Shown: piece after piece, positions 49,435 through 53,402 of the stretch | How the letters are laid out: each line of letters begins with the position of its first letter | Position numbering within the stretch: position 1 is the first letter of the stretch | Assembly (NCBI GenBank): GCA_002786855.1 | Contig: PCUU01000093.1 | Location: forward strand, 1-58,198 | Direction: 5' to 3' | DNA from: Cytophagales bacterium CG12_big_fil_rev_8_21_14_0_65_40_12 | GTDB taxonomy: Bacteria > Bacteroidota > Bacteroidia > Cytophagales > Cyclobacteriaceae | DNA length: 58,198 bases | Program-made: the position numbers and the translations under genes | Notes under the pieces: generated by a model | Seen by the model: the letters and a program-made list of their open reading frames with translations, nothing else | Told to the model about the DNA's origin: nothing | Database searches by the model: none

Positions 49435-50274
49435 CTAGAAACCAGTTTTAAGCTTATCTGACTCATAAATCGGATTGGCAAACTTATCCCATTCTTTGCG
49501 CACATAAGCCCTGAAATTCTTCTGAAATGGATCTGGAGCAAATTGTACTTCTTTTTTAATGGTCACGCGATTCGTATTATGGAATTCTTCCCATATCCCA
49601 ACCTTCTTATCAAAAGCATAAAAACCTCTAACCGCCAATTGGCCATTTTCATAAAAATAATAGTACATGCCTTCCTTTTTGCCGTACTGATAGGGGATTA
49701 CCTCTTTTACTTTGCTTTTGGTGTCGGGATCGTAATAGGATATTTCTGAATCTCTGTACCAGCCCTTGAAAAAATGCTCTTTATTATTGAGTTTTTGTTG
49801 TAGCGAAAGCGACAGCCAGCGCTCATGTTTCGTTCCAAAGAAATACATGCCCTCTTCGACTATTTTTTCATTGATCATTCTTTTGTAAGGGCCATGTAGG
49901 ACGTTCTCTATGTTAACTGACCGATTTCTGGCACTAATGATCTCATTTCTGTCTTTATCATAAACACCAACAAACGGAACATAAAAATCTACAGCAGCAG
50001 GCTCTTTAAGGATATAAAATTCCTCGATTTGAGTTCTTCCTTGAACTTCAGATTTTATCCATTGTCTTTTGGTCTTTTCACCATAAAAGACATTCTTTTT
50101 AATTTTCAAATCTACATCTGCAAGGGTATCGGTAGGTTCCTTATCAAAACCAATATCGGGTTTTGCGATTTCTTCCGTTTTAGCTTTTTCAGCCGCCTTC
50201 TTATCCTTTTTCTTTTGAGCAAAGAGAAAGAGGGGAGTGAGAAGAATGAAAATAAGGACGGTCAGTTTTTGCAT
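49435..50274 (-). CDS. Secreted MORN/YwqK-like repeat protein
   Basis: 279 residues with a signal peptide (LIFILLTPLFLFAQ) and a lysine-rich linker. The body contains MORN-like strands: VLHGPYKRMINEKIVEEGMY, GKKEGMYYYFYENGQLAVRG, FDKKVGIWEEFHNTNR. MORN repeats form beta hairpins that bind lipids or proteins. Function unknown, periplasmic. It ends next to yraN. Confidence 0.7.
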   Translation of the reverse strand: MQKLTVLIFILLTPLFLFAQKKKDKKAAEKAKTEEIAKPDIGFDKEPTDTLADVDLKIKKNVFYGEKTKRQWIKSEVQGRTQIEEFYILKEPAAVDFYVPFVGVYDKDRNEIISARNRSVNIENVLHGPYKRMINEKIVEEGMYFFGTKHERWLSLSLQQKLNNKEHFFKGWYRDSEISYYDPDTKSKVKEVIPYQYGKKEGMYYYFYENGQLAVRGFYAFDKKVGIWEEFHNTNRVTIKKEVQFAPDPFQKNFRAYVRKEWDKFANPIYESDKLKTGF

Positions 50275-50362
50275 TGCCCAAAATTAACGAAAAATGGCAG
50301 AAAGTATTTTAGCCAATTAAGAGCGAATGAACTTTAGGATAAACTATCGAATAGGCGGCTTA

Positions 50363-51313
50363 TCACCAAGGTGATAAGCCCAGCAATTTCTTGCCTAACT
50401 CATTGAGTTCAGCTCTTTCATACTTTGTTTGTTCAAGCTTTCTCGGATCACCAGGAAAGGCATAACCCTCAGGCGCTATTCTATCTTGCCAAGATTTAAT
50501 TCGCCAATTTCGGATCGCTTCATTGTCTTCGTCAGCCGGCATCATAGAAATATATTGAGCTACTCTCACTTTATCGCTTCGGTTGGCCCTGATGCCATGC
50601 GGTTGTAAGCTATTGAAAATCAGAAGGTCGCCAGCCTCCATTTTTACCTTTGTGGGATCAAATCCCGTAGTATCGGGCCTAAATCGATTCCTGTCTTCAG
50701 GTTGGGTGAGTTTCCAAGAATCGTAAGTTCTGAAGAGTTCGGGGATGCATTGAAAGCCGCCCATATTTTCATCGGTTTGGTCGACTAAGGCCAAAACCCC
50801 TTGAACATTTACGGGCTTTTCCTCGGGATCATAGTCCCAATGGATAAATGCCTTGTATTCAAAACTGGGTTTTATGGGGAAATTCAAATTGGCTCGATCT
50901 ATGGAAACCCATAATTTCTCAGTCCCCCAAATATCGACAAAGGCGTCATAGACACGTTGAGACATTCTGTTGTCCCAGAAAACCTGGCTGTTGTAGCACT
51001 CGACCATTCCAGTATTGGCCAGTTCTTTCATTTGCATTTCGGCCCTAGGCGCTTGGTACCATGTATCAGGGTCATTCGGGTCTTTTTCTTCAAATTCCCA
51101 GATGAAATCTTCAGTCTTTTTGGCTTGGTCTTTACTGATGGCATTTTTAATCACCACATATCCGTTGTGAATCCAAAATTTCCAATCTGCTTCTGTCAAA
51201 ACCCTAAGTGGATGGCCATTAGAACGGTCATTGAATTGAATCTTACTGCTTTTAGCGGTGGTAGGGTTGCCCGGAATATTCTTGTGGGCATTCTCTATTT
51301 CATCTGGTTTCAT
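50363..51313 (-). CDS. Phytanoyl-CoA dioxygenase (PhyH) family oxygenase
   Basis: 316 residues. The non-heme iron site is visible as HWDYDP (His-x-Asp) and LQPHGIRANRSDKVRVAQY (distal His and 2-oxoglutarate Arg). GYVVIKNAISKDQA is the usual N-terminal PhyH strand. Members hydroxylate small molecules or lipids with 2-oxoglutarate; substrate unknown. It is divergently arranged relative to the Fic gene. Confidence 0.87.
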   Translation of the reverse strand: MKPDEIENAHKNIPGNPTTAKSSKIQFNDRSNGHPLRVLTEADWKFWIHNGYVVIKNAISKDQAKKTEDFIWEFEEKDPNDPDTWYQAPRAEMQMKELANTGMVECYNSQVFWDNRMSQRVYDAFVDIWGTEKLWVSIDRANLNFPIKPSFEYKAFIHWDYDPEEKPVNVQGVLALVDQTDENMGGFQCIPELFRTYDSWKLTQPEDRNRFRPDTTGFDPTKVKMEAGDLLIFNSLQPHGIRANRSDKVRVAQYISMMPADEDNEAIRNWRIKSWQDRIAPEGYAFPGDPRKLEQTKYERAELNELGKKLLGLSPW

Positions 51314-51555
51314 GGCTCAGTTTTAAAACGCTATCAAAAGTTAAAGCATTTATTTTGAATATTTTATAGGAGTTTATGAAAGAGGCTACACTCCAATAGG
51401 CTAAGATGGGAATGACCACAAGTTTGGACTGGACTGCCGTGACAGCTCATCTTCGCGGCCTATTTGTTAGGCTAAAATTAGAGGTAGGTTGAATTTCAGA
51501 TTTCAGGGATATCTAAGTATGGGATGCTATGCCATTGATCGATACAATCTGGTTT

Positions 51556-51654
51556 TATAGATCAATAAATGGTGTAAAAGTGATTTGTAAAATCTATTTT
51601 TATAGATCATATTTGTCCATAATTATGATTTATATGGATGGAGCATATAGATCA
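51556..51654 (+). repeat. Three TATAGATCA direct repeats at 45-base spacing
   Basis: Exact copies start at 51556, 51601 and 51646. The middle copy overlaps the spacer of the promoter and the third is 43 bases before the fic start. The even spacing suggests protein-binding iterons. Confidence 0.8.
51584..51615 (+). promoter_or_regulatory. Candidate fic promoter
   Basis: TTTG (51584-51587), a 20-base spacer and CATATTTG (51608-51615), one mismatch from TAnnTTTG. Confidence 0.5.
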
Positions 51655-51696
51655 TAGTTAAACAATATAAAAGGCTTGAGAGGATAACGCAAAATT

Positions 51697-52803
51697 ATGA
51701 CTTGGAATTGGCAACAAAGAAATTGGCCTCAATTCGTTTATAATGCCGAGGATTTTCGAGAACAGGAACAGCAGTTTTTCGAAAAGGCCGGCATGATCCA
51801 CGGCAGTTTTCAGCATATTGAAGCGGGCGATCAAGAGGACTTGAGGATAGATTTGTTTAGTCAAGAGGCTGTTAAAACCTCAGAAATTGAAGGAGAGATT
51901 TTAAATCGGGACTCTATACATTCGTCAATTCGTAAACAGCTTGGATTACAAACAGATCACAGACGAATAAAACCTGCGGAGCAAGGGATTGCAGAAATGA
52001 TGGTTGATCTGTATCGCAACTATGAAGTTCCGTTGACAAGGGAAATCCTTTTTTCTTGGCATGAAATGCTAATGAATGGGCGCAGGGATTTATTAGACAT
52101 AGGGCGCTATCGGAGGCATGAAGACCCTATGCAGATTGTATCAGGGCATATCGGAAAACCGAAGATTCACTTTGAAGCGCCACCTTCAAAGCAGGTCATG
52201 GAAGAAATGAAGTCTTTTCTGGCTTGGTTCAATCATTCCATCAAAGGTGGTAAAAATGAATTGCCCGTTCTGATCAGAGCGGCTATTGCACATTTGTACT
52301 TTGAGTCCATTCACCCTTTCGAAGACGGTAATGGGAGACTTGGGCGAGCTATTTCAGAGAAATCACTATCTCAAAGTTTGGGTAGACCAACGCTCATTGC
52401 GCTTTCCCATACGATTCAGGAGCACAAGAAATCTTATTATGAAGCACTTGAGAGCAACAACAAGGATTTGGATATTGGCGATTGGATATCGTATTTCTGC
52501 CAGATTGTTTTAAATGCTCAGGATTATACTCAAAGCACGATCAGCTTTATTATAGAAAAGGGCAAGTTCTATAAGCGTTTTGAAAAACAGCTAAATGAGC
52601 GTCAATTAAAAGTGGTTGGACGAATCTTTAGAGAAGGTTTTGGAGGATTTAAAGGCGGAATGAGCGCTAAAAATTATCAAACCATCTCAGGTGCTCCAAG
52701 CGCAACAGCAACACGTGACCTGACTAAAATGGTGGAGATTGGTGCTCTTAGAAGAGTCGGGGAACTCAAAAGCACAAGATACTTTCTGAATATTCAAGGC
52801 TAG
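51697..52803 (+). CDS. Fic family protein with DNA-binding tail
   Basis: 368 residues. The N-terminal DUF4172-like region (WNWQQRNWPQFVYNAEDFRE) is followed by an inhibitory-helix candidate TSEIEGE at 61-67. The Fic core HPFEDGNGRLGR is at 206-217 with catalytic His206. The C-terminal 70 residues form a winged helix (YQTISGAPSATATRDLTKMVEIGALRRV). Fic enzymes transfer AMP or related groups to proteins. A wHTH tail suggests DNA binding, perhaps to the repeats upstream (inference). Confidence 0.9.
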   Translation: MTWNWQQRNWPQFVYNAEDFREQEQQFFEKAGMIHGSFQHIEAGDQEDLRIDLFSQEAVKTSEIEGEILNRDSIHSSIRKQLGLQTDHRRIKPAEQGIAEMMVDLYRNYEVPLTREILFSWHEMLMNGRRDLLDIGRYRRHEDPMQIVSGHIGKPKIHFEAPPSKQVMEEMKSFLAWFNHSIKGGKNELPVLIRAAIAHLYFESIHPFEDGNGRLGRAISEKSLSQSLGRPTLIALSHTIQEHKKSYYEALESNNKDLDIGDWISYFCQIVLNAQDYTQSTISFIIEKGKFYKRFEKQLNERQLKVVGRIFREGFGGFKGGMSAKNYQTISGAPSATATRDLTKMVEIGALRRVGELKSTRYFLNIQG

Positions 52804-52885
52804 TTGATCACTTATTTGAATCAATGTCATTCAGATCATTTTTTAATCAAAACCATTAATTAGGAGAAGATCCGTTGCAAATATT

Positions 52886-52946
52886 CATAAAAAAGGGTCA
52901 ACAGCAATGTTGACCCTTCTTGTTTTGGCTCCTCCTCTTGGGCTCG
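52886..52946 (-). repeat. Direct repeat A: terminator plus 3' end of tRNA-Asn
   Basis: Copy of 53285-53346 with two mismatches and one length difference in the A-run, exactly 400 bases away. It contains the terminator stem and the last 18 bases of tRNA-Asn. Confidence 0.9.
52893..52918 (-). terminator. Duplicated tRNA terminator, copy A
   Basis: The same ten-base stem as at 53293-53318 (AAGGGTCAAC / GTTGACCCTT) with T's following on the minus strand. Here it would end transcripts of the GIY-YIG gene. Confidence 0.85.
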
Positions 52947-52987
52947 CCCCGAATGTTCGGGGCAAGAACCCTTCCCGATTTTCGGGA
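52929..52987 (-). pseudogene. Degenerate 3' fragment of tRNA-Asn interrupted by a palindrome
   Basis: Eighteen bases identical to the tRNA acceptor/T-arm 3' side (52929-52946) are followed by the palindrome CCCCGAATGTTCGGGG (52947-52962), which replaces three T-loop bases. Then comes CAAGAACCCT, nine of ten bases matching the tRNA. A second palindrome, TCCCGA-TTT-TCGGGA, lies at 52973-52987. Confidence 0.7.
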
Positions 52988-52996
52988 TCAGATACA

Positions 52997-53287
52997 TTAC
53001 CTGAATTTTACTTTTAATTCCTCTACTGACTTCGGGTTATTTGGTAACTCTTGGATGTGTTTTTTCGACTTCATTCGCTTTATATACTTCTCTATTTTGA
53101 GTGCCTGACTTTTATGTAATCCTTGAATAGTGAAGAATACTTCCCAAGGCTGACCTCTTTTAGTCCATATTTTGTTTTTGTCAGAGTCGTTATGAAAGTG
53201 TAATCTCTGCTCAATATTAGATGTATAGCCAATGTAAAACTTGTCTATAGTGGGCGAATAGAGAATATATACAGTGAATGTATCCAT
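52997..53287 (-). CDS. GIY-YIG nuclease family protein (short, UvrC-N/YhbQ-like)
   Basis: 96 residues. FTVYILYSPTIDKFYIGYTS holds the GIY/YIG pair (VYI, YIG), Arg28 lies in NIEQRLHFHN and Glu66 in ALKIEKYIKRM, the usual metal-binding Glu. Short members of this family are widespread and of unknown role, sometimes mobile. The ATG begins right after the terminator T-run of tRNA-Asn, and the gene is bounded by 60-base direct repeats of the tRNA end. It would need transcription through that terminator or its own promoter, which I do not see. Confidence 0.9.
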   Translation of the reverse strand: MDTFTVYILYSPTIDKFYIGYTSNIEQRLHFHNDSDKNKIWTKRGQPWEVFFTIQGLHKSQALKIEKYIKRMKSKKHIQELPNNPKSVEELKVKFR

Positions 53288-53346
53288 AAAAAAAGGGTCA
53301 ACAGCAATGTTGACCCTTCTTGTTTAAGCTCCTCCTCTTGGGCTCG
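53285..53346 (-). repeat. Direct repeat B: terminator plus 3' end of tRNA-Asn
   Basis: Partner of 52886-52946. The CAT at 53285-53287 is the GIY-YIG start codon on the minus strand. Confidence 0.9.
53293..53318 (-). terminator. Terminator of tRNA-Asn
   Basis: Ten-base perfect stem (AAGGGTCAAC / GTTGACCCTT) with a six-base loop, then a T-run on the minus strand, about ten bases after the tRNA. Confidence 0.92.
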
Positions 53347-53402
53347 AACCAAGGACCCTCTGATTAACAGTCAGATGCTCTAACCGACTGAGCTAAGGAG
53401 GA
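53329..53402 (-). tRNA. tRNA-Asn (anticodon GTT)
   Basis: 74 bases, read on the minus strand. The acceptor stem is TCCTCCT with AGGAGGA plus discriminator G. The D arm is GCTC-AGTCGGTTA-GAGC, the anticodon arm TCTGA-CTGTTAA-TCAGA with anticodon GTT, and the T arm CTTGG-TTCGAGC-CCAAG. CCA is not encoded. A terminator follows and a promoter precedes it, so it is a single-tRNA unit. Confidence 0.97.

Follow-up and report, generated by a model that had tools for sequence, protein, structure and literature searches.

Why a gene for a small nuclease should lie between two copies of the end of a tRNA gene is the question raised by one locus in the genome of Cytophagales bacterium CG12_big_fil_rev_8_21_14_0_65_40_12, a member of Bacteroidota. 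In the window, by which the whole analysed stretch of 58,198 nucleotides of contig PCUU01000093.1 is meant, the order on the minus strand is tRNA-Asn(gtt), terminator, GIY-YIG gene, and a second copy of the tRNA 3' end with terminator (Table 1). The answer put forward here, which is held to be the probable one, is a minimal homing-like selfish cassette that would invade tRNA genes, keep them intact, and amplify by recombination between repeats.

The tRNA-Asn locus and its direct repeats

The two repeats, R1 and R2, are 58 nt long, agree at 56 of 58 positions, lie 400 nt apart from start to start, and differ in the A-run at the outer edge (6 versus 7), while the ATG of the gene stands immediately 3' of the terminator T-run; on the near-identical repeats bounding the gene and, from the ORF on the minus strand, on the position of its ATG the preliminary description was correct. 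It had also taken each repeat for a tRNA 3' end with terminator, and both elements are present in either copy (19 nt from the tRNA end, followed by a terminator hairpin whose arms measure 14 nt), but the downstream copy is longer and covers tRNA positions 27–75. No integrase was found between the window repeats, and the 96-aa gene is the only GIY-YIG-sized ORF in these 400 nt.

Table 1. Features of the tRNA-Asn locus, in window positions
Feature	Position	Strand	Basis
Intact tRNA-Asn(gtt), host RNA gene	53328..53402	-	ARAGORN; Rfam RF00005, 69 bits
Repeat R1: last 19 nt of tRNA-Asn and terminator, up to the nuclease start codon	53289..53346	-	Direct repeat, 56/58
tRNA-Asn terminator hairpin: 14-nt arms, 4-nt loop, then T-run	53290..53321	-	Inverted repeat
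GIY-YIG nuclease gene (P0001), 96 aa	52997..53287	-	ORF; PF01541
Pseudo-tRNA-Asn: copy of tRNA positions 27-75, two arms interrupted	52928..52993	-	Alignment to tRNA
Palindrome TCCCGATTTTCGGGA replacing most of the anticodon arm	52973..52987	none	Pseudo-tRNA-Asn
Palindrome GCCCCGAATGTTCGGGGC within the T loop	52946..52963	none	Pseudo-tRNA-Asn
Repeat R2: second tRNA-Asn 3' end and terminator	52889..52946	-	Direct repeat, 56/58
Terminator hairpin, second copy	52890..52921	-	Inverted repeat

The window repeat is not due to chance, as it is a copy of the tRNA end with its terminator and other tRNAs show a like arrangement; an ordinary repeat artefact was likewise ruled out, the same layout being present with other tRNAs and in other genomes. 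In the same genome contig C38 stops inside another GIY-YIG gene, the start of which lies 36 nt after tRNA-Val(tac).

A separate observation concerns window positions 50337–52888. The gene that follows the tRNA-Asn region in three genomes of the genus (G001, G002, and G005) resembles, by eye, the window gene at 49435–50274, and in the window two ORFs intervene, which by the look of their sequence we take to be dioxygenase-like and Fic-like, so extra DNA seems to have entered beside the cassette.

The nuclease and its relatives

The 96-aa product, P0001, belongs to the GIY-YIG superfamily (PF01541, E 7.6e-13). The GIY-YIG catalytic domain has conserved Tyr, Arg, His, and Glu, and residues Y7, G20, R28, H32, A62, E66, and K70 are invariant in 23 aligned sequences of profile A1. 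In the AlphaFold model (pLDDT 93.8) and in profile comparison the nearest solved relatives are SLX1 and UPF0213 proteins: the best profile matches include 1zg2 (E 6.7e-16), SLX1 (E 7.8e-9), and 1ywl, and in the fold search the SLX1 chain 7cq3 (E 3.3e-4) was the sole match under 0.001, the homing nuclease I-TevI ranking much lower (E 0.92). By profile and predicted fold P0001 can be classed as a putative SLX1/UPF0213-like nuclease, but for these relatives no link to tRNA genes came up in the portions of the literature covered. No BLASTP similarity to T4 SegB was obtained (best E 16). Phage and plasmid collections gave no match to P0001 at E 1e-3, so no vehicle was found.

Purifying selection acts on the protein: dN/dS is 0.055–0.211 in those pairs for which dS is finite (9 of 46), and the ratio of mean pN to mean pS is 0.23 over 62 tandem pairs (identical and stop-bearing pairs dropped).

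Linkage to RNA genes across Bacteroidota

Relatives of P0001 are present in 17 of the 19 genus genomes sampled. With profile A1, built from 23 proteins that are mostly RNA-linked, relatives were detected in 64 of 78 genomes of the family (E up to 1e-6) and in 125 of 198 of the phylum (E up to 1e-8), and a scan with profile A2 added 42 loci, mostly from Bacteroidota, with two Ignavibacteria records. Altogether 183 arrays were gathered, 162 without duplicates; the set of 148 used for linkage leaves out L001–L006 and 11 arrays with less than 250 nt of upstream sequence. The survey was queried by this GIY-YIG gene, and units with other cargo lie outside its reach.

In 117 of these 148 arrays the start lies at most 250 nt downstream of the 3' end of a same-strand tRNA or tmRNA (median 48 nt), a count that describes the best-scoring hits of profile A1 and is not the rate for all GIY-YIG genes, since the survey began from mostly RNA-linked proteins. 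The linked arrays amount to 20 of 22 in the genus, 20 of 25 in the family, 24 of 35 in the named, and 53 of 66 in the phylum set. Within 120 nt the count is 107 of 148, while by arithmetic (33 tRNAs, 4.06 Mb) a random gene start would fall there on the right strand with a chance of about 0.05%. The earlier expectation that homologues would be flanked by RNA gene ends with repeats is borne out by these 117 arrays and by the 87 of 108 arrays of 3' type in which a repeat of the tRNA end is present. A group I intron around the ORF was also looked for, and no intron family reached gathering score in the 44 distinct loci scanned, the window locus included.

The tRNA type is distributed over the protein tree in clades, with 40 changes against 82–95 in 200 shuffles (119 proteins, 16 labels including tmRNA); this count is without L048, and with L048 labelled Thr it is 41 against 82–96. 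The number of type switches is uncertain, as no more than 15 of the 117 inner branches are starred, while type is still clearly grouped in clades.

The Pfam search of the window genome gave 7 GIY-YIG matches. Of five small GIY-YIG hits in this genome, two are neighbours of tRNAs, one is 547 nt away from tmRNA, and two are in REP-like repeats. The latter, L001 (G000:C33:34713-37937) and L004 (G000:C74:14118-17342), are GIY-YIG genes inside REP-like families (CTTTTCATCCTGAG..GAAGGATC and GAAGCAATCTC/GAGATTGCTTCGTC), and at neither locus did an RNA family reach gathering score. A separate GIY-YIG clade (L002 on G000:C29, L023, and L034) lies 215–547 nt downstream of tmRNA in three genus genomes, and at L002 the gap to tmRNA contains several copies of 33–83 nt direct repeats.

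Tandem arrays

Two to eight near-full-length genes, each covering more than 55 of 92 profile positions, were counted in 25 of the 30 loci examined. They are 322–596 nt apart, mostly 322–429, with neighbour identity of 69–100%; the wider figure of 45 of 148 arrays with at least two genes includes genes split by stops or frameshifts. Where the sequence was inspected the order is tRNA, gene, pseudo-tRNA, gene, and some array copies carry stops. At L019, R2 is seemingly followed (by eye) by the start of a decayed second GIY-YIG gene, which suggests that arrays decay from the far end.

Occupied, empty, and decayed sites in the genus

An Nramp gene precedes tRNA-Asn, and the tRNA was found there in 17 of 19 genus genomes (not in the stretches covered of G007 and G013). 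This site is occupied in five of the 17, namely, the window genome (G000), G002, G011, G012, and G018, and unoccupied in 12, with 5 changes over 16 genomes on the Nramp tree. The alternative that all relatives share the arrangement, named in the preliminary description as contrary to its own proposal, does therefore not hold, and the empty sites that it suggested looking for in relatives exist. With 5 of 17 sites occupied and 117 of 148 arrays RNA-linked, the proposal itself, a layout arising from a nuclease-coding segment inserted at or duplicated from a tRNA end, is supported, with homing as the suggested means.

The clearest empty site is that of G005, a close relative of G002 and an exact empty version of it: a single 75-nt repeat is followed by the same flank (302/334). 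The single repeat is identical at 74 of 75 positions to both G002 copies and still contains the 12 bases with which the G002 gene opens, ATGAATACATTC. It is read as the result of cassette loss by recombination between the repeats, by which a footprint and an intact tRNA would be left. A decayed gene lies behind tRNA-Asn in G017 (score 88 against a shuffle maximum of 62), and at the other 11 unoccupied sites, G005 included and G009 covered over 208 nt only, no gene trace was found above shuffles. In G010 part of a tRNA-Asn, its T loop carrying a palindrome, was seen by eye.

The repeats evolve in concert, as their agreement is higher within one genome (73/75 in G002; 56/58 over the core and 66/76 over a longer stretch in G000) than between genomes (58–64 of 79–80 for G000 against G002 or G005). 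Proteins of Asn type in G002, G018, G011, and G012 are 74, 58, 56, and 56% identical to P0001, where the Nramp identities are 86, 75, 77, and 68%; since the divergence of the former rises roughly with that of the latter, vertical descent with losses fits within the genus, which speaks against frequent transfer. Although the Nramp proteins of G006 and G011 are almost the same on the tree, these genomes were rejected as an empty and occupied pair because no alignment of their downstream flanks was obtained. The kinds of terminator that stand behind tRNA-Asn are at odds with the Nramp tree; this result is ambiguous and is left out of the evidence counted.

These data bear on the possibility that the gene is a domesticated host gene serving DNA repair or tRNA-gene upkeep, whose association with tRNAs is old and whose arrays and pseudo-tRNAs are recombination debris. 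Purifying selection on the protein, the parallel divergence of the Asn-type proteins and the Nramp gene, and the structural kinship to SLX1 and UPF0213 agree with such a role, yet it is judged unlikely in view of the patchy occupancy of the syntenic site (5 of 17, with its 5 changes over 16 genomes), the footprint in G005 and the decayed gene in G017, the many switches of tRNA type on the protein tree (40 changes over 16 labels), and the array copies with stops.

Pseudo-tRNAs and the mirror form

The pseudo-tRNA-Asn of the window begins after the P0001 stop codon and keeps the last 19 tRNA bases and the terminator, while on the sense strand TCCCGAAAATCGGGA replaces most of its anticodon arm and GCCCCGAACATTCGGGGC interrupts its T loop. 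The intact tRNA-Asn beside P0001 is unchanged, the palindromes being carried only by the arms of the pseudo-tRNA. In array L049 (tRNA-Thr) the pseudo-copy comprises the entire tRNA, with TCCCGATAGCTATCGGGA in the D arm.

Such copies were sought in the 119 arrays in which a tRNA was called on one side (108 of 3' type and 11 of 5' type; L048 is included in the 119 and in the 108) by an alignment score of at least 24 that also exceeds the scores of 40 tRNAs of other isotypes per array. A stretch of the same tRNA was present across the gene in 85 of 119 arrays (75 of 3' type and 10 of 5' type), and in the other 34 no same-tRNA copy exceeded the other-isotype controls. Among 108 arrays of 3' type the repeat reaches the tRNA 3' end in 87, passes it in 81, and extends at least 20 nt beyond it in 68; the median identity is 98%, and in tandem arrays the repeat runs into the next unit.

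Ten of the 31 arrays without an upstream tRNA or tmRNA have a tRNA directly after the gene. When 20 of these 31 exceptions were scanned with Rfam, 9 had a tRNA directly downstream and 9 no RNA family, the other two being L048 and L198; L037, one of the 11 exceptions outside the scan, has a downstream tRNA-Ala. Upstream of L048 lies a degraded tRNA-Asn-like gene with an altered 5' end that was missed by ARAGORN, and this RNA is probably itself a pseudo-tRNA. In the ten mirror cases the 5' part of the same tRNA precedes the gene, with palindromes in most, and in several of them this part stops at about position 33–35, in the anticodon loop. Duplication of a promoter in the 5' type was considered and dropped, because in the seven 5' cases with a single copy the repeat extends no more than 0–12 nt upstream of the tRNA. 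The preliminary description had named tRNA ends as the target; the association with RNA genes stands, but it is with the body of the tRNA gene, on either side, and not with the end alone. At L198 (G147) the neighbour is the RNase P RNA gene, whose 5' end directly adjoins a GIY-YIG gene; by eye, an inverted copy of this 5' end, CCCCGCACATAACATTTAA, seems to flank the GIY-YIG gene.

Direct repeats of a tRNA 3' end that bound an insert are the usual product of tRNA-site integration. The window unit resembles tRNA-site genomic islands in having the tRNA 3' end and terminator repeated at both borders, and it might on this ground be a remnant of such an event, in which a tyrosine recombinase, lost or acting in trans, placed small DNA at tRNA 3' ends with the nuclease as cargo. 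This origin is regarded as very unlikely, since the window unit, at 400 nt, has room for one small gene and holds no integrase, the mirror form places the gene before an intact tRNA, and the palindromes in pseudo-tRNA arms are foreign to that model.

Palindromes in the pseudo-tRNA arms

GC-rich perfect palindromes with arms of at least 6 were found in 67 of 85 pseudo-copies, compared with 20 of 85 intact tRNAs, 155 of 1700 dinucleotide shuffles, and 4 of 70 flank windows; no palindrome by this criterion was present in 18 of 85 pseudo-tRNAs. The commonest begin with TCCCGA (23) and TCCGCC (10). Of 82 mapped palindromes the T arm holds 34, the anticodon arm 31, the variable loop 3, an edge 1, and the 3' acceptor strand 0, the other 13 being in the D arm or the 5' acceptor strand, which were not told apart. 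The type of palindrome agrees with the protein tree more closely than expected by chance (20 changes against 24–36 in 500 shuffles, n=66), so that it tends to be passed on together with the element.

The TCCCGA form has 10 copies in the window genome against 3 for the reversed control, 2–52 copies in the genus, and 0–9 in eight of the nine other-family genomes besides G291. Random insertion of palindromes was weakened as an explanation by their presence in 67 of 85 pseudo-tRNAs against 4 of 70 flanks in view of a genome that holds only 10 TCCCGA copies. Gene-less pseudo-tRNAs with palindromes occur in the window genome after tRNA-Arg(tct), after tRNA-Leu(taa), and by tRNA-Gly(gcc).

Two further observations concern this form. 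G291, of the same order, contains 235 copies of TCCCGAN2-8TCGGGA against 1 of the reversed control, far above the other 28 genomes. In the window genome the TCCCGA..TCGGGA palindrome was also seen by eye in the loops of REP-like hairpins (L132, L134, L135, and L136), as if it were entering or replacing hairpin loops in general.

Least probable of all is that the palindromes are the mobile part, a family of hairpins that enters folded DNA by means of the GIY-YIG protein, much as REP elements are paired with partner transposases: similar forms do occur in pseudo-copies of many tRNA types and in loops of REP-like hairpins of the window genome, their type correlates with the protein tree, and REP-like repeats surround two further GIY-YIG genes of this genome, but the excess of the TCCCGA form there is small (10 copies against 3), palindrome-bearing pseudo-tRNAs persist without the gene, and several genomes of the order have none or few.

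A probable homing-like cassette

What is observed of the proposed homing-like cassette is the layout, the tRNA-type specificity of clades, the arrays, the palindromes in the arms, the footprinted empty site, and purifying selection; DNA cleavage, the site of the cut, spread driven by repair, and protection by the palindromes are inferred. Its gene lies by the presumed target and is absent from the sites of some relatives, and in these respects it fits a free-standing homing endonuclease.

In the proposed mechanism the unit would comprise the GIY-YIG gene, the pseudo-tRNA, and the tRNA end with terminator. The nuclease would cut the gene of one tRNA type, in the T arm or the anticodon arm, and recombinational repair from a cassette-bearing copy would then insert the gene and leave one complete tRNA with terminator beside it, so that an essential gene could be occupied unbroken. 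The displaced tRNA copy would decay; it carries palindromes in the arms that the nuclease would read, and these may make it uncuttable and limit exchange between it and the intact tRNA. As every unit closes with the tRNA end and terminator repeated, unequal recombination would add units, as in the arrays, or remove them precisely, as at the empty site. The weak point of the scheme is the adjacent intact tRNA, which would still be a potential target and in principle cuttable; in classic homing the insertion destroys the target site.

A broader version is more doubtful, though it deserves mention: a phylum-wide selfish class may invade genes of structured RNAs (tRNA, tmRNA, and RNase P), its SLX1-like nuclease reading the arms as DNA hairpins and the palindromes being products or marks of the cutting and serving as built-in immunity. 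If this is true, the array of gene, folded site, gene, and folded site would be formally like an integron, built from a nuclease and tRNA arms.

Relation to known systems

Cutting in tRNA arms, repair from the cassette copy, and protection by palindromes are proposed by analogy with two described systems. SegB of T-even phages is a free-standing, tRNA-associated GIY-YIG homing endonuclease that is reported to cut within tRNA genes with RAWTSGAAC as the favoured motif, and its segmental (tandem) amplification needs nuclease activity and phage recombination genes; its authors call the matching question of self-targeting open for their system (PMC13096335, accessible portion). By our reading, the reverse complement of this motif resembles the conserved tRNA T loop, where the window repeat begins. 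SegB, too, combines a GIY-YIG nuclease gene, placed in a tRNA cluster, with tandem amplification, but it has 221 aa and is of phage origin, while P0001 has 96 aa, is chromosomal, and shares no BLASTP similarity with it, and palindrome-disabled tRNA copies are not mentioned in that portion of PMC13096335. By its mode of action the cassette would be filed as a variant of free-standing homing endonucleases and not as a member of the SegB family.

In the fungal mitochondrial mORFs (Allomyces atp6; Glomus atp6, atp9, cox2, and nad3) an endonuclease ORF brings a replacement for the 3' end of the host gene; for atp6 and cox2 the native end, now displaced, is located downstream and was not detected in mRNA (PMC3630166, accessible portion). 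A nuclease ORF with a duplicated host-gene end and a displaced end downstream is common to both; the mORF hosts, however, are protein-coding and mitochondrial, whereas here bacterial chromosomal RNA genes with tandem arrays and palindromes are concerned. The covered part of PMC1564403 contains nothing on tRNA genes as sites. No description of the arrangement in bacterial chromosomes was found in the CC-licensed PMC literature without preprints, and it may still be published.

Significance

If the cassette reading is true, a major bacterial phylum has homing-like elements within its essential chromosomal RNA genes, which would give a context to many small GIY-YIG proteins in Bacteroidota. The many tRNA targets with their matching nuclease clades would form a natural system for studying how a small nuclease chooses its DNA target, and the palindromes of the tRNA arms pose a testable question on structure-specific cutting and immunity. 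The arrangement also suggests a possible route by which the ends and terminators of tRNA genes may be replaced.
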